The notes under the pieces were generated by a model. The model had not been told where the DNA came from. It made no database searches and saw only the letters and a list, made by a program, of their open reading frames with translations. From NCBI RefSeq assembly GCF_041468085.1, contig NZ_CP121017.1, forward strand, positions 4,251,501 to 4,315,500: 64,000 bases of DNA, read 5' to 3'. Shown piece by piece: positions 24,774-42,373 of this stretch (position 1 is the stretch's first letter; every line of letters begins with the position of its first letter). The translations under genes were made by a program, and so were the position numbers. Origin of the DNA: Tistrella mobilis. GTDB lineage: Bacteria; Pseudomonadota; Alphaproteobacteria; Tistrellales; Tistrellaceae.

Positions 24774-27700
24774 TCACCAGGAGAAGCGCAGCCCGGCGGT
24801 CAGCCGATGGTCGCCGCCGGTCTCGTCGATCGCACCGGCATAGCCGACACCCAGCGTCACGCCAGGTGCGACATCGGCCTCGACCGCCGCGCCGATCCGG
24901 CCGGTGGTCCGCCCCTGCGAGATACCCTCCACCTGGAAGGTGTTCGCCGGGTCGCCGGTGAAGTGGGCCGTCAGCGTCTGATCGCGATCAAGCAGTTCCT
25001 GCCCGACACCCAGAGTGAAGCTCGGCCGGATCACGGTCTCGCCCTTCGACGCATCGCCATAGGCCGTAGAGAAGCGCACCCCGGCGAAGGCTTCCAACCC
25101 TTCGACCGTGCCCCCCTGGACCACCAGCGCCGCAGCGCCGGCACCGGTTTCGGTGACGTCATCACTCTTCTGCCGGTCATAGATCAGGCGCAGCATCGGG
25201 GTGACGGTCCAGCTCGGGGCCCCCGCCGCCGCCTCGGGCGTGCCCGGTTTCGCCCCAGGCACCACAAGATCGGTCGAAACGCCGATCGCGGCCGTCACCT
25301 GATCGGTATCGAAGCTGCCCCGGGCCGTGCGGTCGGTACCGGTGATCGACCGGTCGGCGTCAGAGGACGACCGGGTATAGGCGACCACCGCATCCAGCGT
25401 CACCGGCCCGGCCGGCACCGCACCATAGCCGCCGACATGCCAGCCGGTGGTGTCGATCCCGGCATCCCGGCTGCGGGCAGTGGTCCGACCGTCGGTCACG
25501 CCGGCTGCAATGCCGAGGCGCGCCGCCTCACCCACTGCAAAGTCGATGCCCACCGCCGTGCCGGCGCTCCGCCAGCGCAGATCGCCCGCCGCATCCTCAC
25601 CGCTGGTCCGGCCGGTATTGCCGAAGCCGGTGATCCAGGCACCGCGATGACCGGCATGGGCGGCGTTTGCCGCCCCGTCGACGAAGGCCCGGCCCGTCCC
25701 GCGCAGATAGCGCCAGTGGCCGGCATATTCGGACCCGGCAAGATCGCCGAGGGCCGCCGCCGCATCGGCATCATCCAGCGCCGCCAGTTCGGTCAGCAAC
25801 TGGTCGCGATCCCCGGTCGCCGTCAACCCCTGGGTCTCCAGCACGGTTGCGACATTGCGGGCATTGCGGGTGGTGGCGAGCGCCCGGAAGCCGTTCTCGG
25901 TATCCACCAGCCTGAGCGAGATCACGTCGCCATCAGCCAGCAGCCGTCCGACCAGACCGGCCCGATCGGTCTCGACCGTATCGAAGGTACCGGTGATGCC
26001 GTCGGCCGCCGTGATCAGCTCGGTGCTGGCATAGCGCGGCGTGCTGCCGTCGAACGAGCTGAGCGACAGCGTGCCGCCCTCGATCGTGGCGGCACCGCCC
26101 ACCACCAGCCGGTCGGTGACCGTGCCGCCCGCACCGTCCGCGGCATATTCCATGGCGAGCGTGCCGGTTGCGGTCTGGGTGAAATCACCGGTGACGGTGA
26201 TGGTGCCGATCGAATTGCCCGGCGCCACCTGGCCCTCGCTGATCAGATCGCCGTCGATCGTGCCATTGCCGGAAAGCGTGCCCGCGGCCCCGACCGTCAT
26301 CTCATCGCCGGTGAAGCGGCCGTCGAGACGGACACCCCCCTCGTTCACATCGAAGGCGGCAGCGAGCAGATTGCCCGAGAAGCGCCAGGTGCCGGCCCCC
26401 TCCTTCTCGATCAGACCGAAACCACCGAGATCATGGGCGAAACTGCCGCCGCCTTCGAAGGTGGCGACGCTGTCTTCCCGATCGTGGGCGGCATCGAGGT
26501 CGTTGATCTCTCCCGCCAGAACGTCGCCATCGATAACGGCGCCGTCCCGCACGGTCAGCCAGCGCTCGTCGGCATCTTCCGAGAAGGTCAGGGCCCAGCC
26601 GTCTTCATTGGCGCCAAGCCGCCCGCCGATATCGGCGATATTGACCATACCCGCGTCATAGATCACACCGCCCCGGATCTCACCGCGGTTGACCAGTGTC
26701 GGAGTATCGATCGACAGGGAGTCCGGGTCGATCGAACTGGTGAAGACGATGCCGAGGGCCGCGGAAATCAGGCCGCCCGCCTGATTCTCGACGGAAGCCT
26801 CACCACCGGCCTGGATCGCCAGGCGCTCTGCCTCGATCACACCGGCATTGACCACGTCGACCAGACCGTCGGCATCGGAAGAAATGGCGACGCCACCGGT
26901 GATCCGGCCTGCGGCCGCATTGGCCAGCATGCCGTCGCCGATAAGGAACATGGCGGGCGCATGCCGCTCGTCATTCCCGCCCGAGATGGCGCCCGCATTC
27001 TCGATGTCGAAGCCGCCTTCGACATCGATGGCACTGATCCCGCCGGTGATCTCGCCGCCCGCCCGGTTGACGATCGACACATCATCGGCCGTGGCGTAGA
27101 CGCCATAATCCTCGCCGGTCAGGAAGCCGGCATTGTCGATGTCGAGCGTATCGACCTCGGCATCAATGGCCGTGACGCCGGCGATGCGCGCGCCCGACAG
27201 ATTGACCACATCAAGCGAACTGGCCTCGGTCTCGTCATCGACGCCGGCCCGGATGCCATAGGCGTTCGTGCCGGCAATCAGACCGGCATTGGTAATCACG
27301 GCACCATCGGCATTTACCAGATCAATCACGGCGGAATTCGGGTTGCCGTCCTCATCGCTCTGGCCGGTTCGGATCACCACACCGCCGCTGCGGTTGTCGA
27401 TCACGGCATCGCTGCCGCTCAGCACCATGCCGCCAGCAATCAACCCGGCCTCATTGCGAATGCGGATATCGGCGCCGGAGGCGCTGACAGCGAAGCTCTG
27501 ACCGGCGATCCGCCCGCCGATATTGTCGAGCACGAAGCCGTCACCGCCGCCCGCCACGATGGCGATATCGCCCAGGATCTGCCCCTCATTGCGGATGGCA
27601 CCGGCATTGCCGTCCACGTCGCCGAGGTCGAGGATCGTGGTTCCTGCCGAGGACACCACGCCACCGGCAGCATTCACCAGGCTGCCACCCGCGAGTTCAA

Positions 27701-30700
27701 TGGCAAGGGGAACGGTCTCTCCGTCCGGATCCCCGGTTGCCATCGCAGTGATGGTACCATGATTGAGGATCGCGCCGCCGCCGAGAGCCACGGCCAGCCC
27801 CCCGGTCGCCTGGATCAGGCCCTCATTGATCAGCTCGGCCGATCCGTCTTCCCCGGTGGCAACGATGCCGATCCCGCCGGAGATCACACCACCCCCGGCA
27901 TTGCGGATCGCACCGCTTCCGAACGCGAGCGCCACTTCATCGCCCGAGATGGTACCGGCGTTGTCGATGAAGGCATTCCCATCGATGCCGATACCAATGC
28001 CACCGCCGCTGATCGTGCCGGTATTGGTGACCGTCACCTCGTCGGATGCAGAAACGACAAGGCCTGCGCCAAAGAGGCCGATGATGCTGCCGCCGTTCGC
28101 GATCTCGACGGTATCACCGGTCACCACCAGCCCACCGTCGGTGCCGCTGATCACGCCCGCATTTTCAAGCGTTACGTCGGTCCCGGCAAATGCGTTGCCC
28201 GCAGTGCCGGCAATGACGCCGGTACCGGAGTTGTTCAGGCTGACGGCACCGTCGGCGACAACCGACAGCCCGGCCACGTAACCTGCATTATCGAAGGTCG
28301 CATCGCCCGCCGCCTGAATGACGGCGCCATAGCCTTCGCCATCGATCACGCCGTTGATGTCATTGGTGACGGCAACCTCGCCGCCATCCACCGCCAGCCC
28401 CGCCTCTGCCCCGACGATGACCCCGCCATTGGCAATATCGACACTTTCGCCGACAACGATCAGAGCCGTGCCGCCACCACCGCGGATCAGAGCGCCTTCG
28501 CCATTCGACACCGCGATGTCATCTCCGTGCAGCAATATGCCGCTCGCGCCGTCGCTGACGATCACACCGCTGTTGCCGAGCAGAACTTCGGCTGCCGCCA
28601 CATCGATCGCAAGGCCGTCAGCCGCCACGATGGTGTTGGTATTGGCGATCTCCAACCCGCCGATGATGTCGGCCGCCAGCGCCACGCCGTCCCCACGCGC
28701 CTGGATCAGGCCATCATTGGCAATGGCGGTCGTCAGCTCCCCGGCATCGTCGGCGACGTCACCGATCATCACCGCGCCGGCACCGCTTTCGATCACGCCG
28801 GTATTGGCGATCAGCCCGCCGCTGCCGGCCAGGATGGCGACGCCTTCCGCATCGTCACCGCCGAAGGTCGGATCGGTGGACGAGATGCGCCCGGCATTGG
28901 TGAGCGACGCCGTGCCCGCCAGCAGAAGGGCCGGTCCGGCGGCCTCGATGACCCCGCCCGCAGCATTGCCGACCACCGCATCGCCTTCGACGGTGATCGC
29001 AATGCCCTGCGCGGACCTGATGAGGCCGGCATTGGTGATCAGCGCTTCGCCCGTCAGCTGGATGGCCGTGCCTTCGGCGACGATCTCGCCGCCTGCCCGG
29101 TTCTCGATGATCGCGCCGTCCATCGCGTGGACGGCAGCGTCGTCGCTCCGGATCCGACCGATATTGTCGAGCGTGAGCGAGCCCAGGGTGACGATGCCGA
29201 ACACGGAGCCCGAGACGGTGCCGCTGTTGACGACGCTGGTGGCGCTGGCTTGCGAGCCGACGATCCCGCTGCCACCATCCGCCCCCTCAATGCTGCCCGT
29301 ATTGACGACGCTGCCCCTGCCGTCCTGGATGAGCACACCTGCCGCGCCGCCCGTGACGGTTCCGGCATTGCTGATCGATCCGGCATGGCCGTCTTCGTCG
29401 GCCACCAGATATACGGCGACGCCCCCCGCCACCACCGACCCGCCGGCGAGGTTGTCGAGCGCGCCGCCGGTCAGAACCACGGCATCACCGAGCGATGTGA
29501 TGCTCCCCGAATTGCGGACGGAACCATTGGCCGCGGCAACCGCATTGCCGGCCATGGCGTCGATCGTCCCGGCATTGTCGACCGACGGCCGTACCCCGCC
29601 TCCCCCGACCAGGACAACGCCGCTGGCACCGGTGATCACACCGCCGTCACGATTGACGATCGTACCATCCGCGCCATAGACGGCCACGTTGCCGCCCGAG
29701 ACCCGACCGGCATTATCGAGAGCGAGCGTGCCTTCGGTGCCGATACCGACCGCCCGACCGGTGATTGTGCCACTGTTGACGACGCTGGTGCCGCCGGTCA
29801 CGCCACTTGCAATGCCGACACCACCGCCACCGTCGATGGTGCCTGTATTGATGACACTGCCCGTGCCCCCCAGGAGGGTCAGGGCGGAGGTGCCGCCTGT
29901 GATGACGCCGGCGTTGTCGACCACGACCACGTCGCTGATCAGTCCATTGCCTTCATCTGCCGCCACGACACCTGCCGCGGCATTCTTCAGCTCGGCCGAA
30001 GCACCGCCTTCAAGGTAAATGCCGTTGATGAAGCCGGCATTATCGAGCACCGCTCCATTGCCGGCATTGAGGGCAACACCCATTCTGTCGCCGGCGATCA
30101 CGCCGCCCGCCCGGTTGGTGACCATGGTCTCGTCGCCGATGACGGCAAGGCCTGCAATGATCTGGGCGTCTCCGTCGGAGCCGCCGCCGATGATGGTTCC
30201 TGCATTGTCGATGATGGCTGTACCGGCCCTGAGCGTAACGCCCTCCAGGCCGGCCGCGCTGATGATGCCGCCCTGAAGGTTAGAGATCGTCACGCGTCCT
30301 GCAACAGCGACCCCGACCCCGTGCCCCGGCCCTTCAGAGCGGATCAGACCGGCGTTTTCGATCACCGTCTCGCGGGCAGCCGGATCCTCGTCCCCCGTCC
30401 CATCCGACACCGCAATGCCGGCCCAGCGGCGGTTGAGGATCACGCCACCCGCAAGATTGTTGATATGGCTGCCGCTACCCACGGCCACGGCACCATCCGG
30501 GACATCGTCGGGCACGACCCCATGAACAGTGACGATCTGCCCGGCGTTGACCACATCGGCGGCACCGGTGGTGAAAACCGCCGTCCCCCAGGTCAGGATC
30601 TCAGCCCCGGCGGCATTGGTCAGGGTGGCATCACCGTCGATCAGGAAGCCGGTCCCGCCGGCGACCAGTCCTTCGTTGACGATATGGGTGACATCGGCAG

Positions 30701-32663
30701 TGGCGCTGACGGCCGGAGCCAGGATGCCGTCGATCGTGCCCCGGTTTTCGATCCGGATCACGTCGCCGGAAAGCACGGCCGCGCCGTTGAAGCCGGTGAT
30801 CCGGCCGCCTGCCTCATTGATCAGGATGGTCTCTGCCGGCCGGGCGGCGCCCGCGCGGGTGCCGGCGATCAGGCCGATTTCACTGCCCTTGCCTGCCGCG
30901 CTGCCTTCGATGATGCCGGCATTCTCAACCAGCACGGTGCCGCGACCAGTGACGAGGTTGTCGGTTTCCGCGGTGATCGATCCGCCAGCCAGATTCCGCA
31001 GCACGGCCTGTGTTCCGCCGTCGATCATCACGCCGTTCGAAACACCTGCATTGATCAGCCCGGCACTGTTGCCTGCCTCGACGGTGACACCGGCCTCCCG
31101 CCCCAGCACCATGCCGCCGGCCTGGTTCACGACCATGGCCGTGTCGGCCTGGATCGCGATGCCACCGGACACCGGCAATCCGCTGTTTGCGCCGCCAGCA
31201 ATCGTACCGGCATTGGTCACATCCACCATATCGCCACGGATGGCGAGGCCGATCCCGTCGCCCAGGATAACGGCATCCGACCGGTTCATGACACTGACCG
31301 TACCGGCATCGATGCGCACGCCGTCGGCATCGTAGCTCTGCAGGGTGCCGGCATTGTCGAGCATGACCTCGCTACCGGCAGCCGTCAGCGCGACGTCCCC
31401 GCTGAGCACCATGCCACCGATCCGATTGCCGATCCCGACACCGCCCATTGCGGCGGCGATGATGCCGGTTCCCCGATCCGAGAGAATCTTGCCGGCATTG
31501 TCGATGTCGATCGCGCCACCCATTACCTGAACGCCGCCAATGCTGCCGCGGATCTCGCCGGTGGTGCCGTTCTGCAGGTTGATCGCAGCCGGGAAGCGTT
31601 CGGGGCTGCCGATTTCGATGCCGTAACCGGCGGCGTCCGAAATCACGCCGTCATTCTCCACCGTCACCGTACCGGTGCCGGTAACCAGGTTGACGGTCTG
31701 GGCGGTAATGGTGCCCCCTTCGGCATTGCGCAGCACGGCCGCGGCTCCGCCATCCAGGATGACGCCATTGGTCGTGCCGGCATTCTCCACCGTCGCCGTA
31801 CCGGCCGCCTGCACGGTGATGCCCGCACTGCGCCCAAGAGCCGTGCCGGTGGCGCCGTTTACCACCCGCGCCTCCGCCGACTGCACGGCGATACCACCCG
31901 ACACCTCGAGCGGGCTGCGATAGCCGCCCGAGACCACACCATCATTGGTGACGTCGACGGTCCCGCCCGTGACACCAAGGCCGACGGCCTCACCGATGAT
32001 CACGCCATTCGTGCCGTTGGCGACGATCACCTCGCCGGCATTGATCAGCGCACCATCGGTCTGATTGCTCTGGATGGTCCCTTCATTCCCGATGACGGCT
32101 TGCGCGGCCTGTACAAGCAGGGCCGGCCCTTCCGCGAAGATCGCACCGCTCGCGCGATTGTCCAGGGCGAAGACGCCGGTCCCGGCAGCGACCAGGCCGG
32201 CGCCCGCCTGCCCGGTGATCACGCCGGCATTCTCGACCGCAAGCCCGGCGGTGCCATCGGGGTCCGCCATCTGCACACCGGCGGCACCGGTTATCCGGGC
32301 ATCGGTGTCATTGACCAGGGTGCTGCCGACCAGCCCCACGCCTACGCCCCCGGCCGTGACCTCGCCACGGTTCTCCAGCGTCCAGCCCGGAGTTTCCGAC
32401 GACACGGCCGGCTCATCGCCAGCGACCGTCCGGGCGGAACCTGCGACGATCTCCACCGCCGTTGGCAGATCCGACAAGGCCTCAAGCCTGAGCGGCACGT
32501 CACCAGACCCGACCTGAATGGTGTCGGCCAGAACCTCGTCCCGACTGCCCACGCCCCAGACCATCACGGTCATGGCGGCACCAGCCATCAGGTGGCGCCT
32601 GAGATGGATGAGACGTCGGGACAGGTCGACCTCACGGTCCAGGGAACGGGGGTGGCCAGCCAT
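24774..32663 (-). CDS. Giant autotransporter adhesin-like protein (2,629 residues)
   Basis: It begins with an extended signal region (cleavage expected near VLADTIQ, residue 46). About 2,200 residues of parallel beta-helix-like repeats follow, built around variants of NAG-x-I-x-G and V-x-N-x-GG-x-I, with no catalytic domain that I can recognise. Next come a GTLSLSSFDG / ITGTFDT autotransporter junction and a C-terminal beta-barrel of about 290 residues that ends LTAGLRFSW. The barrel inserts in the outer membrane and the passenger is displayed or released (type Va secretion). AAGGA precedes the ATG. A roughly 244-residue block recurs within the passenger. The gene is monocistronic. Adhesion is an inference from architecture. 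Confidence 0.9.
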   Translation of the reverse strand: MAGHPRSLDREVDLSRRLIHLRRHLMAGAAMTVMVWGVGSRDEVLADTIQVGSGDVPLRLEALSDLPTAVEIVAGSARTVAGDEPAVSSETPGWTLENRGEVTAGGVGVGLVGSTLVNDTDARITGAAGVQMADPDGTAGLAVENAGVITGQAGAGLVAAGTGVFALDNRASGAIFAEGPALLVQAAQAVIGNEGTIQSNQTDGALINAGEVIVANGTNGVIIGEAVGLGVTGGTVDVTNDGVVSGGYRSPLEVSGGIAVQSAEARVVNGATGTALGRSAGITVQAAGTATVENAGTTNGVILDGGAAAVLRNAEGGTITAQTVNLVTGTGTVTVENDGVISDAAGYGIEIGSPERFPAAINLQNGTTGEIRGSIGGVQVMGGAIDIDNAGKILSDRGTGIIAAAMGGVGIGNRIGGMVLSGDVALTAAGSEVMLDNAGTLQSYDADGVRIDAGTVSVMNRSDAVILGDGIGLAIRGDMVDVTNAGTIAGGANSGLPVSGGIAIQADTAMVVNQAGGMVLGREAGVTVEAGNSAGLINAGVSNGVMIDGGTQAVLRNLAGGSITAETDNLVTGRGTVLVENAGIIEGSAAGKGSEIGLIAGTRAGAARPAETILINEAGGRITGFNGAAVLSGDVIRIENRGTIDGILAPAVSATADVTHIVNEGLVAGGTGFLIDGDATLTNAAGAEILTWGTAVFTTGAADVVNAGQIVTVHGVVPDDVPDGAVAVGSGSHINNLAGGVILNRRWAGIAVSDGTGDEDPAARETVIENAGLIRSEGPGHGVGVAVAGRVTISNLQGGIISAAGLEGVTLRAGTAIIDNAGTIIGGGSDGDAQIIAGLAVIGDETMVTNRAGGVIAGDRMGVALNAGNGAVLDNAGFINGIYLEGGASAELKNAAAGVVAADEGNGLISDVVVVDNAGVITGGTSALTLLGGTGSVINTGTIDGGGGVGIASGVTGGTSVVNSGTITGRAVGIGTEGTLALDNAGRVSGGNVAVYGADGTIVNRDGGVITGASGVVLVGGGGVRPSVDNAGTIDAMAGNAVAAANGSVRNSGSITSLGDAVVLTGGALDNLAGGSVVAGGVAVYLVADEDGHAGSISNAGTVTGGAAGVLIQDGRGSVVNTGSIEGADGGSGIVGSQASATSVVNSGTVSGSVFGIVTLGSLTLDNIGRIRSDDAAVHAMDGAIIENRAGGEIVAEGTAIQLTGEALITNAGLIRSAQGIAITVEGDAVVGNAAGGVIEAAGPALLLAGTASLTNAGRISSTDPTFGGDDAEGVAILAGSGGLIANTGVIESGAGAVMIGDVADDAGELTTAIANDGLIQARGDGVALAADIIGGLEIANTNTIVAADGLAIDVAAAEVLLGNSGVIVSDGASGILLHGDDIAVSNGEGALIRGGGGTALIVVGESVDIANGGVIVGAEAGLAVDGGEVAVTNDINGVIDGEGYGAVIQAAGDATFDNAGYVAGLSVVADGAVSLNNSGTGVIAGTAGNAFAGTDVTLENAGVISGTDGGLVVTGDTVEIANGGSIIGLFGAGLVVSASDEVTVTNTGTISGGGIGIGIDGNAFIDNAGTISGDEVALAFGSGAIRNAGGGVISGGIGIVATGEDGSAELINEGLIQATGGLAVALGGGAILNHGTITAMATGDPDGETVPLAIELAGGSLVNAAGGVVSSAGTTILDLGDVDGNAGAIRNEGQILGDIAIVAGGGDGFVLDNIGGRIAGQSFAVSASGADIRIRNEAGLIAGGMVLSGSDAVIDNRSGGVVIRTGQSDEDGNPNSAVIDLVNADGAVITNAGLIAGTNAYGIRAGVDDETEASSLDVVNLSGARIAGVTAIDAEVDTLDIDNAGFLTGEDYGVYATADDVSIVNRAGGEITGGISAIDVEGGFDIENAGAISGGNDERHAPAMFLIGDGMLANAAAGRITGGVAISSDADGLVDVVNAGVIEAERLAIQAGGEASVENQAGGLISAALGIVFTSSIDPDSLSIDTPTLVNRGEIRGGVIYDAGMVNIADIGGRLGANEDGWALTFSEDADERWLTVRDGAVIDGDVLAGEINDLDAAHDREDSVATFEGGGSFAHDLGGFGLIEKEGAGTWRFSGNLLAAAFDVNEGGVRLDGRFTGDEMTVGAAGTLSGNGTIDGDLISEGQVAPGNSIGTITVTGDFTQTATGTLAMEYAADGAGGTVTDRLVVGGAATIEGGTLSLSSFDGSTPRYASTELITAADGITGTFDTVETDRAGLVGRLLADGDVISLRLVDTENGFRALATTRNARNVATVLETQGLTATGDRDQLLTELAALDDADAAAALGDLAGSEYAGHWRYLRGTGRAFVDGAANAAHAGHRGAWITGFGNTGRTSGEDAAGDLRWRSAGTAVGIDFAVGEAARLGIAAGVTDGRTTARSRDAGIDTTGWHVGGYGAVPAGPVTLDAVVAYTRSSSDADRSITGTDRTARGSFDTDQVTAAIGVSTDLVVPGAKPGTPEAAAGAPSWTVTPMLRLIYDRQKSDDVTETGAGAAALVVQGGTVEGLEAFAGVRFSTAYGDASKGETVIRPSFTLGVGQELLDRDQTLTAHFTGDPANTFQVEGISQGRTTGRIGAAVEADVAPGVTLGVGYAGAIDETGGDHRLTAGLRFSW
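30876..32066 (-). repeat. Long-period (about 244-codon) repeats in the autotransporter passenger
   Basis: Protein residues about 200-350 and 443-596 align with a constant offset of 244. For example, SGGIAVQ at 255 matches SGGIAIQ at 499, and AVLRNAEGG at 309 matches AVLRNLAGG at 553. A third, more diverged copy contains SAELKNAAAGVVAADEGN further on. Short NAG-type repeats are nested within each block. This indicates growth by duplication of large passenger modules. Confidence 0.8.
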
Positions 32664-37601: not shown

Positions 37602-38603
37602 TCAGCGCGGCATCTTTGCAATCTCGGCCATCAGCCAGTCCCGAAAGGCCGACACCGCCGGCCGGCGCAGCCCGGCTTCGGTTGCAACCAGATAATAACC
37701 CCAGCCGTCATCAGCACTGATGTCGGGGAAAAGCGGCACCAGCCTGCCGGCCGCGATCGCATCGGCCGTAAGCGACGGCCGGCCGATGGCGATGCCCTGA
37801 CCGGCTTCCGCCGCCTCGATCACCGCAGTCGATTCACTGAAGACCGGTCCGCCCGGCCCGGCGGCGATCACCTCCGGCATCGCCACCCCCGCCGCCCGGA
37901 ACCAGCAGCCCCAATCATCGAGTTCGGCGAAGTGCAGTCGCACCTGATCCAGCAGGCAGGCGGGCGCAAAATCAGTGCGGGCACGCAGCGCGGCGGCCAA
38001 AGCAGGCGCTGCGACCGGGGTGAGGGGTTCGGGACCGAGCGGCAGCACCACCAGACCGCGCCAGTCCCCGCGCCCCCAGCGCAGGGCGATATCGGCCTCG
38101 CCGCGGGCGAGGTCGACATGGTGACGCTGGCTGTCGAGACGCACGGCCAGATCGGGCTGCGCCTTCAGGAACCCGCCGATGCGGGGGGCCAGCCAGAGGC
38201 TTGCAAAACTCGGCGCCACGCCGACGGTCAGGATGCCGGGCGCCGTGCGGGCCAGCGCCCGTTCATAGGCATGGGCCATCCCGTCCAGCGCCTGATGGGC
38301 GGCATCGGCAAGGTCGGCACCGACAGCGGTCAGGCGGACCCCGCGGGCTTCGCGTTCGAACAGCTTCAGCCCCAGCCGGTCTTCCAGCGTCTTCACCTGC
38401 TGGCTGACGGCCCCGGGGGTAAGGCCAAGCTCTCCTGCTGCCGCCGCCATGCCGCCCAGCCGCGCCGCGGCGGTAAAGGCCCGGATCGCATTCAGCGGCA
38501 GGCGCGCAATAGTGCGCGCCCGCGCGATCTCGGGCCGAAGCGCCGGATCGGCATGGGCGCCCCCCGGTTCGGGATTGGGATCGCGGAGCGGAGCATCTGC
38601 CAT
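37602..38603 (-). CDS. LysR-family regulator, GcvA-like
   Basis: The 333-residue protein has a helix-turn-helix after a Pro/Arg-rich N-terminal extension (about residues 1-35). The LPLNAIRAFTAAARLGGMAAAAGELGLTPGAVSQQVKTLE segment places it in the GcvA group. The effector domain follows with SFASLWLAPRIGGF. The ATG at 38603 has the longest plausible N-terminus; starts within the extension are possible. It directly follows the IleRS-like gene (stop at 38611), with an interval of about seven bases, so the two genes may be co-transcribed. Confidence 0.82.
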   Translation of the reverse strand: MADAPLRDPNPEPGGAHADPALRPEIARARTIARLPLNAIRAFTAAARLGGMAAAAGELGLTPGAVSQQVKTLEDRLGLKLFEREARGVRLTAVGADLADAAHQALDGMAHAYERALARTAPGILTVGVAPSFASLWLAPRIGGFLKAQPDLAVRLDSQRHHVDLARGEADIALRWGRGDWRGLVVLPLGPEPLTPVAAPALAAALRARTDFAPACLLDQVRLHFAELDDWGCWFRAAGVAMPEVIAAGPGGPVFSESTAVIEAAEAGQGIAIGRPSLTADAIAAGRLVPLFPDISADDGWGYYLVATEAGLRRPAVSAFRDWLMAEIAKMPR

Positions 38604-38610
38604 GCGCCGA

Positions 38611-39777
38611 TCATGCCGTGGCGGGAAGAACCGGTCCAGGGGCAGCAAGCCGTGCTATGGGGGCCGCACCTGCCGGAAGGCTGCGAAGGCGCAGGCGCCC
38701 CACCCCCAGCAGACGGGCAAGTTCACCATCGCGGAAGGGCGGCCGCCGGTCGGCAGGCAGATCCAGTTCGACGACGGTATCCGCCCCGAAAGTCTTCCCC
38801 GCTGCAACATCCCGCACCAGGGCCCGCAGCCGGTCCAGGCGCCGGTTGGCGAGGATCGTTCCCGGCGTCGCCCAAAGCGGATCCACCGACGGCCAGAGAC
38901 GTTCATGAACGCTGCCGGCCCCGGCACCCCAGCGCGCCAGCCAGGCTTCTTCGGCGGTAAAGGGCAGAAGCGGCGCAACCCAGGCGACCAGATGGTTGAA
39001 GGCGCGGGCGGCGACCGCCGCGACCGCCCGCCGCCCCGAGGCATCCGCATCGGCCGCCAGCAGCCCGGCCCGCAATCCCGCCCAGCCGGTGGTCAGCTCA
39101 TCGGCGCAGAACCGTGTCAGCCGGGCCAGCATCGCCGGCAGATCGGCCGCCTCCAGATCGTCGCGCAGCTCGGCATCGATCTCGACCAGCCGGGTGAGCA
39201 GCAGGATCTCGGGCAGATCGAGCCGGTCGACCGGCGGAAGCAGCCCGGCCGGTGCCACCGACAGATGATCGAGCATCCGGCCAAGGGTCACACGGATGCA
39301 CTGGAATGCGGCAGAAGCGTCGGCATCGTCACCGGCCGCAAACCGTGCACGGAGCAGATCGGCACCCTCCTGGTCCGCATGCCCGGCCCAACGCCGCCAC
39401 TCGGCGCCGGCGTCACTCTGGGGGGCATCGGCATCCGCCAGCAGGCCGAGCCGCCGGCCGGCGGCATGGGCGGCCCCGGCCGGGGGGGGCGTGTCGAACC
39501 CGGCCATGCGCCGGGCGCGCGCCAGCATGTCCTGGCAGAGAGCCTCCTCGACCACGCCTGCGCCCGGCGGCAGGATCCCGGGCATGTCGGGCAGGGCCGC
39601 GCGCGGCCGGCCGGCGCAGGCGCTGCGGACACGGCGATGCAGGCGCATCTCGGTCCACGCCTCCACGAGCCTGGTTTCGCGTGCGGGATCAGCCTCGACG
39701 GAGAAGGTCAGATGCCCGGAGACGGAAGGATGATCGGAAAAGGGCGTGGCGGTGGCCTGAAGAAGCAGCTCGGTCAT
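38611..39777 (-). CDS. Stand-alone protein resembling the C-terminal part of isoleucyl-tRNA synthetase
   Basis: The 388-residue protein has no catalytic HIGH or KMSKS motif. Residues about 188-320 nonetheless resemble the anticodon-binding helical domain of IleRS: LPEILLLTRLVEIDAELRD (like the R-x-x-ELD helix), LTRFCADELTTGW (like LTNFC-DLS), then the hallmark WVAPLLPFTAEEAWLARW (266-283) and SVHERLWP. The N-terminal 150 residues are not recognised. It may be a degenerate IleRS fragment, a paralogue adapted to tRNA or peptide binding, or part of a split regulator; the open frame and normal codon use argue for a maintained gene. A LysR gene follows seven bases downstream. Confidence 0.6.
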   Translation of the reverse strand: MTELLLQATATPFSDHPSVSGHLTFSVEADPARETRLVEAWTEMRLHRRVRSACAGRPRAALPDMPGILPPGAGVVEEALCQDMLARARRMAGFDTPPPAGAAHAAGRRLGLLADADAPQSDAGAEWRRWAGHADQEGADLLRARFAAGDDADASAAFQCIRVTLGRMLDHLSVAPAGLLPPVDRLDLPEILLLTRLVEIDAELRDDLEAADLPAMLARLTRFCADELTTGWAGLRAGLLAADADASGRRAVAAVAARAFNHLVAWVAPLLPFTAEEAWLARWGAGAGSVHERLWPSVDPLWATPGTILANRRLDRLRALVRDVAAGKTFGADTVVELDLPADRRPPFRDGELARLLGVGRLRLRSLPAGAAPIARLAAPGPVLPATA

Positions 39778-40107
39778 GATCGGATCCCGTCGGTCGTACC
39801 GCCCCGCCGGGCGGTCCTTCCGATGCGAAACCGGGACCTCGTCTCCGAGCGGTCAGGCGGTGCCTGTATCGTCGCTCCGGCGCCCTATGACGACGCCGGT
39901 CCCGGCCTCCGCAGAGACCGGGCGGGAAATTCGCGCAATCGATACCGATACCAGGCAGCGGCCACGGGCGGCCGGGGAGCGGCGGGCATGCGTGCAGATG
40001 CCGACGATCATGACTGCCCTCCTCTCCTGCGCGTGACGAACCTGTGCGGGGAAGCCTGCGCGATGGCGCACCTCTCCGTCAAGAACGATCTGCCGGGGGG
40101 GTGCCCG
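39778..40107. other. Intergenic interval without a recognisable gene
   Basis: This 330-bp stretch separates the IleRS-like gene and the chemoreceptor, both on the reverse strand. I see no conserved frame, palindrome or terminator with a T-run. It must hold the promoter of the IleRS-like gene. Confidence 0.4.
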
Positions 40108-42192
40108 TCAGCCGGCGCGGATCCGCGCCAGGATCTCACGTACCACCTGGTCGAGCCGCGAAACAGTCGTGGTGAGTTCCTCGGTACCAGCCAGTACCGC
40201 ATCGGCGGCATCGCCGGTCCGGTCGGAGGCCTGCCCCACCTCGGCCGCGCGCACCGACACCCGGTCGGTTGCGGTGGCGGCTTCCTGGACGTTGCGGGCG
40301 ATTTCGGCGGTGGCGGCCCCCTGCTGATCGATGGCCGAGGCGATGGTGAGCGCAATCTCGTGCATCTCACGAATGCTGACCGTCACCCGGTCGATCGCCG
40401 TGCCCATATCGGCCGCAGCGCCCTGGATCTCGCCCAACCGCCCCGAAATATCGGCGGTCGCCCGCGCAGTCTGATCGGCCAGCGCCTTCACCTCGGATGC
40501 GACCACGGCAAAGCCCTTGCCGGCCTCGCCGGCACGGGCCGCCTCGATGGTGGCATTCAGCGCCAGAAGATTGGTCTGGCCGGCGATGTCGCCGATCAGC
40601 GACACCACCTGGCCGATCACACGGCCCGTCTCGGCCAGCCGCTTCGCCTGGCTGTCAGCACTGCCCGCCTCTTCGACCGCCCGATCGGCGGCACCGCGGG
40701 CCCGACCGACCTGGGAGCCGATCTCACCGATCGAGGCCGACAATTCTTCCGCCGCGGCGGAGACGGTCTGGACATTGGCGGCAGCCGCTCGCGATTCGGC
40801 ATCCACCGCCCGTGCACCATCGATCGATGTCGCCGACATCTGGCCCATCCCGACTGCGGTGTCGCGCATCCGCGCCGCCGCGGTGATCAACTCCTGCAGC
40901 ATCCGGCCCGCCTCCTGTTCAAAAGCGTCGGCGATCCGCCGGCGTTCGGATGCAAGCTCCGCTTCATGGGCCTCGCGCCGTCGCTCTGCCTCGTGGGCCA
41001 GTTCGTCGGCGCGGGCCAGACCGTCGCGGAACACGACCACAGTGCGGGCCATGGCACCGATTTCGTCGGCCCGGGCCGTTGCCGGCACCTCGATCGCGCG
41101 ATCGCCCTCGGCCAGCTGATGCATGGTACCGGTCAGCCGGCGGATCGGTGCGGCAATCGCGTGCCCCATCCAGAACAGCGCGAGCCCGGCACCCAGGGCG
41201 ATCACCACCAGGCCGATCGACAGCCGTCGCTCCACGGCGCGGGCTTCGGCGAAGACCGCCGCCTCTGGCACCGTGACCAGCACCGTCCAATGTGCCGCAC
41301 CACGGCCCGGATCCACCGGCAGCGCCCGGACCAGAACCGGGCCGGCGGGCCCGGCCACCTCGGCACCATCCAGCGCCCTTTCGACCGGCCCGCTCGCCGT
41401 TGCCTTCAGGATGCCGGCAATCGCCGGGGCCGTCGCCGGCTTCCCGCGGCGCGCGTCGTCGGGATGAACCACCCACAATCCGTCGGCGGACAATACCGCC
41501 ACCTGGCCGCTGCCGAAGGGTCTGGCCGCACCGATCCGCCGCTGCAGGTCATCGAGGCCCAGATCGACGGTGGCGACGCCGACCGGCTTGCCCGCCCGCA
41601 GAATGGGGGCAGCGGCCGTGGTCATCAGCACATCCCGCCCGGCGACGGGATAAAGATAGGGCTCGGTCACCAGGCTGCGGCCGGCACGCATGGGCGCGCC
41701 ATACCAGGCGTCCGCCGCCGCATCCATGATCAACGGCTCGGTCACCACGCCGCCATCAGCGGTGCGCGACATATAGGGCACGAACCGGCCTTCGGCGTCA
41801 CCGAGACCGGTGTTGCGGAAATCGGCATCCCGCCCGTCGGGCAGGCCGGGCTGCCAGCCAAGGCCACCGCCGACCACCCCCGCCTCGGCCGCGATCACCC
41901 CGTGCAATGCCGCGGCCAGGGCCGTGCGATCGGTGACGCCGGCAGCCAGCATGCCGGTCTGCCCGGCCGCCATCGTCTCGGCCAGGGCAACGGCACGGCC
42001 GATCTCTTCCGCCACCACCGCCGCCTGGCCGGCTGCCGTCTCCGCCAGAATCCGGTCGGCCGCAAGCCGCGCCGCCTCTTCCTGGGTCCGCAGCACATAG
42101 GCAGTCGCCAGCCCGAAGCCGACGAGCAGGATCCCACCGCCCAGCACCAGGATGCGCAGGCGCAGGGATCTGAAGATACCGCGTCCGGCCAT
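40108..42192 (-). CDS. Methyl-accepting chemotaxis protein with periplasmic dCache-like sensor
   Basis: The 694-residue receptor has an N-terminal membrane helix (about 10-31), a large periplasmic domain (about 35-325) with dCache features ([51 protein letters not shown]), and a second helix (about 327-345). A HAMP domain and a signalling domain follow, with the hairpin tip [33 protein letters not shown]. It senses a small ligand outside and controls CheA. No C-terminal CheR-docking pentapeptide is visible. It stands alone between reverse-strand genes; the ligand cannot be predicted. Confidence 0.9.
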
Positions 42193-42373
42193 GTCGCCCT
42201 CCGTCCATGTCGTGTGTCCGATCTATCACACCAACCATGACGCGCGGATGACGATCCGGCTGTGGTTCAGCGGCATTCCCCCTCACCCCCAGAAATCCTC
42301 GATGGACCCACGCCCGCAGATGGGCGAGGCTTCATACGTTCCTCCGCCAGGCCCTCGCCGGATATGCGCCCCC

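Follow-up and report, generated by a model that had tools for sequence, protein, structure and literature searches.

The ORF at 38611..39777 (reverse strand) of the window, i.e. the whole 64,000 nucleotide stretch of Tistrella DNA analyzed here, encodes an internally deleted IleRS paralogue of 388 aa (mini-IleRS) and not a detached domain. The explanation favored in this study, with a probability of about 0.7, is that an ileS gene was duplicated and then lost its middle, and that its helical remnant has since served as a protein for binding or regulation, without catalysis. Such a protein would probably be co-expressed with the neighboring LysR regulator, and would probably bind an RNA or protein partner and act in regulation.

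The ORF starts with ATG, contains no internal stops and has ordinary codon use (GC3 of 0.78, compared with 0.74–0.87 in the neighbors), the last of these as stated in a preliminary description of the gene. The IleRS-type anticodon-binding-like domain named in that description was recovered by Pfam Anticodon_1 (PF08264) on residues 193–324 (39.4 bits, cut-off 25.1, E 7e-10). NCBIfam IleRS models matched within residues 192–299 and far under their cut-offs, as expected of a fragment; for TIGR00392 the score was 29.3 bits against a cut-off of 621.4, so that the score of a whole IleRS protein was not reached.

Two blocks were detected with a profile built from 66 IleRS (63 mostly alphaproteobacterial by title, and three of Tistrella). 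The first (residues 25–96, 39490..39705, reverse strand; profile nodes 36–110) spans the N-terminal region of IleRS up to and including the helix in which HIGH would be expected, and scored 22.8 bits (the two orthologues reached 15.2 and 13.6) compared with 6.5 for the best of 20000 shuffles, 11328 of which reported a score. The second (residues 156–322, 38812..39312, reverse strand; nodes 685–849) comprises the end of the stem-contact region and the anticodon-binding domain, and scored 94.4 bits compared with 4.8 for the best of 5000 shuffles (2940 reporting a score). Since both scored far above the shuffles, there are two IleRS blocks and not one, and the former description as a lone C-terminal domain has to be revised: the N-terminus is also kept, and the middle and the zinc tail are lost. 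In a protein search of 96 genomes, residues 25–101 also matched IleRS in several (e.g. 2.1e-6 in G016), in a stretch about 570 aa N-terminal to the one matching the anticodon part. A phmmer search of PDB sequences with the whole mini-IleRS sequence found Priestia IleRS1 (4.3e-7), with two stretches that were each weak alone (0.011 and 1.3), the N-terminal one aligning mini-IleRS 31–101 with IleRS 21–93. For the C-terminal part (residues 331–388, 38614..38787, reverse strand), which was modelled like the IleRS C-terminal region and lacks the zinc knuckles, no sequence match to the IleRS profile was found. A scarcity of lysine (0–1 per mini protein) was considered as a special trait and dropped, as the surrounding genes are mostly lysine-poor too (0.3–3.5%).

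Between the two blocks, about 575 profile positions (nodes 111–684) were unmatched, and this missing middle corresponds to the Rossmann core, the CP1 editing domain and KMSKS. The absence of a catalytic core, already asserted in the preliminary description, was also seen with the catalytic-domain Pfam families, none of which was found on the whole of mini-IleRS up to E 1, nor when its N-terminal 138 aa were searched by themselves with a limit of E 10. KMSKS was not found in the mini-IleRS sequences of the window and of T. mobilis, and at the position of the HIGH signature (residues 62–81, 39535..39594, reverse strand) the region aligned, with the motif erased in all three orthologues. According to the accessible text of PMC10485003, both signature motifs are essential for ATP binding and transition-state stabilization, and swapping HIGH left IleRS1 inactive. 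From the known chemistry of IleRS, the loss of the signature motifs and of the core would leave mini-IleRS without aminoacylation; by sequence it is predicted to be catalytically dead, with no isoleucine activation, no tRNA charging and no editing. The C-terminal zinc-binding CxxC pair is likewise absent, the resident IleRS having CARC and CDRC. In bacterial IleRS the zinc-binding C-terminal peptide is essential for aminoacylation, and one title in the reference list names RNA recognition for it (PMC4861432, in its accessible sections).

Of the positions with a conservation of 90% or more across 37 IleRS, mini-IleRS keeps 15 of 30 in residues 25–101. In residues 188–330, 29 of 42 such positions are kept, but seven near-invariant ones at residues 231–242 (39052..39087, reverse strand), namely F231, Y232, D234, K237, D238, Y241 and C242 in IleRS letters, were replaced in all three orthologues. 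Ordinary tRNA-Ile recognition is therefore doubtful, and these replacements make an IleRS-like specific recognition of the tRNA-Ile anticodon unlikely. The equivalent of K237 is presumably a residue of E. coli IleRS near the anticodon, which served as a lead only, no report of it being found in the literature search. Net charge is uninformative on tRNA binding, the IleRS anticodon domain itself being slightly acidic (-3 in mini-IleRS and -2 in the same region of the resident IleRS, with an average of -2.2 for 30 IleRS; the minis carry -4 to -6).

Structure prediction bore out the likeness to IleRS. AlphaFold2 with a 40-row alignment (three minis and 37 IleRS) gave a model with pLDDT 82 and pTM 0.85, of which the best VIA-align match was 1qu2, an IleRS with tRNA (Z 28.4, 354 residues, rmsd 4.6, model range 3–383); Foldseek matched the same entry at E 1.1e-8. 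With the three minis alone pLDDT was 43 (poor), and the top Foldseek matches were still IleRS (E 1.6e-3 and above). The confidence of the fold predicted for mini-IleRS thus depends on the IleRS sequences aligned with it.

A search of the genome (6.3 Mb, four contigs) with PF08264 found five places, four of which were assigned by NCBIfam to ValRS, IleRS, LeuRS and MetRS (using short loci for all but IleRS), the fifth being mini-IleRS. Besides the latter there is one intact ileS (TIGR00392, 858.5 bits), and mini-IleRS is not the broken remnant of an otherwise missing ileS, a possibility raised in the preliminary description. The resident IleRS has 953 aa, with HIGH at about residue 66 and KMSKS at 611 (numbering from MSVDYK), and also has the editing region, the anticodon domain and both zinc CxxC pairs. 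All three Tistrella genomes gave one full-length IleRS match each in addition to the mini.

Between the window genome and T. mobilis, mini-IleRS showed a dN of 0.100, a dS of 0.435 and a dN/dS of 0.23 over 387 codons (0.18–0.35 by segment); between T. mobilis (L007) and G001 the ratio was 0.17. The anticodon segment had the lowest dN but also the lowest dS, so that its dN/dS (0.20–0.21) is ordinary. Six neighboring genes ranged from 0.049 (LysR) to 0.213 (GNAT), and the resident IleRS had a dN/dS of 0.081 with a dN of 0.016, about six times lower than that of the mini. Protein identity was the lowest among the compared genes (83.5%, with 87–98% for the six neighbors and 96.9% for IleRS), indicating weak constraint. 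Neutral decay was simulated from mini-IleRS with 205 changes and four equilibrium GC values (500 runs each), and gave a mean pN/pS of 0.97–1.13 and a minimum of 0.58, compared with the observed 0.284. No stops arose with a chance of 0.09–0.56 in these simulations, so that the absence of stops alone is no proof of selection. Unchanged synonymous sites did not form significant runs within the gene (longest unchanged-codon run 14, shuffle P 0.10). Mini-IleRS is under purifying selection as a protein. An ileS pseudogene, which the intact frame had earlier been taken to argue against, was rejected: the disrupted frame and neutral pattern of a pseudogene were not seen, the frame being open in all three genomes, with one in-frame codon indel, no frameshifts and a dN/dS of 0.17–0.23.

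These data also bear on the idea of a slowly decaying relic, whose frame would stay open chiefly because the coupled lysR is driven by translation running through it; this is an unlikely explanation. The fast protein change relative to IleRS, the many conserved residues that are gone and the closeness of the lysR ATG in all three genomes are consistent with it, but the low dN/dS in every segment (at most 0.35), the lack of frameshifts and a pN/pS well under the simulated minimum are not, and coupling alone requires an open frame and not a conserved protein. The probability that the ORF is due to chance, or is an antisense artefact of GC-rich DNA, is negligible. Long antisense ORFs do lie over the gene (1263 aa on the opposite strand), but the homology to IleRS, far above shuffles, refutes this explanation, and the mini frame is the most conserved of the six (83.5%). 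It is followed by one at 80.1% that is interrupted by stops in both species; the antisense frame that is open reaches only 64%.

It is conceivable, though doubtful, that mini-IleRS still binds tRNA-Ile or tRNA-like RNA through its anticodon domain, as a chaperone, decoy or charging sensor. The predicted anticodon-domain fold, although model-dependent, the near-invariant positions kept in residues 188–330 and the low dN of the anticodon segment (with its ordinary dN/dS) would favor such binding, and the net charge is no objection to it; the replacements at residues 231–242, which include the K-D pair, and the absence of the zinc-binding C-terminal peptide speak against it. IleRS is monomeric, and the resident enzyme is complete (HIGH, editing, KMSKS, anticodon domain and zinc tail), so that a complementary loss is not seen. 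Both points make it quite improbable that mini-IleRS is a partner subunit of the resident IleRS, in the way that SLIMP is for metazoan mitochondrial SerRS. What the two would share is that SLIMP is likewise a synthetase paralogue whose active site has collapsed and which evolves faster (accessible text of PMC10570016). The retention of an ileS-derived remainder as a non-catalytic binding or regulatory protein is the reading preferred here.

In all three Tistrella genomes, 7 nt separate the stop of mini-IleRS from the ATG of the LysR-type regulator (GcvA-like; 37602..38603, reverse strand), and the neighbor already proposed as a possible partner is therefore a constant one. Its product scored 260.7 bits against the GcvA model, which did not reach the cut-off of 288, and a LysR search at 1e-60 found it in three of 59 genomes, all Tistrella. 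The order MCP, mini-IleRS, LysR on the same strand, with a convergent GDSL hydrolase, was kept in all three. The intergenic stretch upstream of mini-IleRS (39778..40107, reverse strand; 330 nt) was 93.6–95.7% identical between species (329 columns). This exceeds the values for the mini gene (84%) and MCP (89–90%), is close to that for LysR (94.5–95.6%) and lies at the upper limit of what four other short stretches between or near gene ends showed (56–94%). It may be a control region. In this stretch no Rfam family was found at E 1, RNA folding was not unusual (z -0.52) and no sigma-70-type promoter or terminator was found by consensus, so that it is the spacing of the two genes that points to co-expression. 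A 52-codon upstream ORF (40011-39853, reverse strand), preceded by a purine-rich stretch, was considered as a leader peptide and rejected, as the T. mobilis substitutions appeared by eye to be mostly non-synonymous.

Three further observations were made in this and other parts of the window. At 39853-40011 (reverse strand) the window genome and G001 are identical, whereas T. mobilis, which is more closely related to G001, shows several base differences; local recombination is a possible cause. An open frame of 1263 aa (38449-42240, forward strand) runs antisense to mini-IleRS and MCP and is poorly conserved as a protein, which is typical of GC-rich coding DNA. An ORF of 2629 aa (24774-32663, reverse strand) carries a C-terminal autotransporter beta-domain at residues 2342–2608; the part of its counterparts that lies inside the loci L036 and L119 aligned at 51–68%, compared with 83–100% for the surrounding annotated genes, and the passenger may vary fast.

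Orthologues, the search for which had been proposed as a check, were found full length and in synteny in all three Tistrella genomes searched, and the mini of T. mobilis KA081020-065 (L036) is identical to that of G002. Of 387 alphaproteobacterial genomes (with up to four candidates scored per genome), 334 matched at 1e-5 and 53 did not. The three Tistrella, each at 1e-197 or below, were alone in surpassing 1.3e-23, the value of the best non-Tistrella match, which lay in a 966-aa frame. Among 397 genomes of the phylum, one matched at 1e-30, namely the genome itself, and G001 and G002 were not among the matches. Six peptide patterns retrieved 227 relatives from a collection of 84,980 species, and only T. 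mobilis was full length in the best 80; divergent orthologues could escape these patterns. Frame lengths were compared at 107 loci (the best 80 of the 227, and 27 of 30 from the 96-genome search), where among the frames listed (up to 1100 aa; 31 touching a locus edge) only that of L036 was short. Within the listed matches of the 387 genomes and the 96-genome search, other short frames occurred in six genomes, none of them a mini, and each of these genomes has a KMSKS frame. Those of G146 (in two pieces), G191, G341, G072 and G089 belong to IleRS truncated by the boundary of the retrieved sequence, and that of G062 is a frame broken near a masked stretch. In G131 (L136) and G284 (L135), of one alphaproteobacterial family, frames of 1269–1288 aa surround the IleRS match and are longer than most others listed, possibly by an extension or an upstream open frame.

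A mobile origin was rejected. No match was obtained by tblastn in 50,697 phage records, the single match in 72,556 plasmid records was an ordinary Acetobacter ileS, and none of 44 pattern stretches in a scan of viral contigs was a relative of mini-IleRS. The structure search of BFVD gave two matches with E < 0.001, both of them viral IleRS. A careful tree of the anticodon part placed the minis beside the Tistrella IleRS (support 37/0), and in a quick tree they were unplaced, on a branch of 6.3.

A more specific proposal, that a genus-specific dead mini-IleRS and the LysR of its operon form a switch sensing amino-acid or tRNA status, is speculative and unlikely. If true, a synthetase scaffold without its catalytic and editing parts would have been reused as a bacterial ligand-binding regulator. 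If mini-IleRS is functional, it shows that a class I synthetase can have its tRNA-docking scaffold domesticated separately, and it offers a small protein, from a genus that can be cultured, for testing this. The usual route of paralogues is here reversed, with the catalytic and editing middle lost and two flanking pieces kept under selection; as a generalization from the accessible text of a review (PMC9437257), synthetase paralogues mostly reuse the active site or keep the catalytic domain.

With an intact parental enzyme alongside and maintenance by selection, mini-IleRS fits the class of aaRS-like paralogues. No comparable bacterial case of a truncated, free-standing or catalytically empty IleRS paralogue was recognized in a literature search covering titles and the starts of abstracts, mostly outside subscription papers. 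Bacterial type 1 IleRS (ileS, TIGR00392; 1qu2, 8c9e) shares with it the N-terminal block, the stem-contact region and the anticodon domain, arranged in the same order and with a like fold in the model, but mini-IleRS is without the catalytic core, editing domain, HIGH, KMSKS and zinc tail (388 versus 953 aa). IleRS2 and SbzA, the two entries of the IleRS row of a table in PMC9437257, are likewise duplicated IleRS with an added role; the text available from that source describes IleRS2 as an IleRS resistant to mupirocin and SbzA as transferring Ile from Ile-tRNA, whereas mini-IleRS has no catalytic core. Glu-Q-RS (YadB), in the same text, is also a synthetase gene reduced by domain loss, but it keeps the catalytic domain without the anticodon domain, the reverse of mini-IleRS. 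The nearest conceptual analogue is SLIMP, a synthetase paralogue marked by domain collapse, an ablated active site and faster evolution than in the parent enzyme (PMC10570016, in the sections available). SLIMP, however, is of class II, its catalytic domain is degenerate but present whereas mini-IleRS has lost the catalytic core, and it is the obligate partner of a complementary truncated SerRS, a complement of a kind not seen for mini-IleRS.
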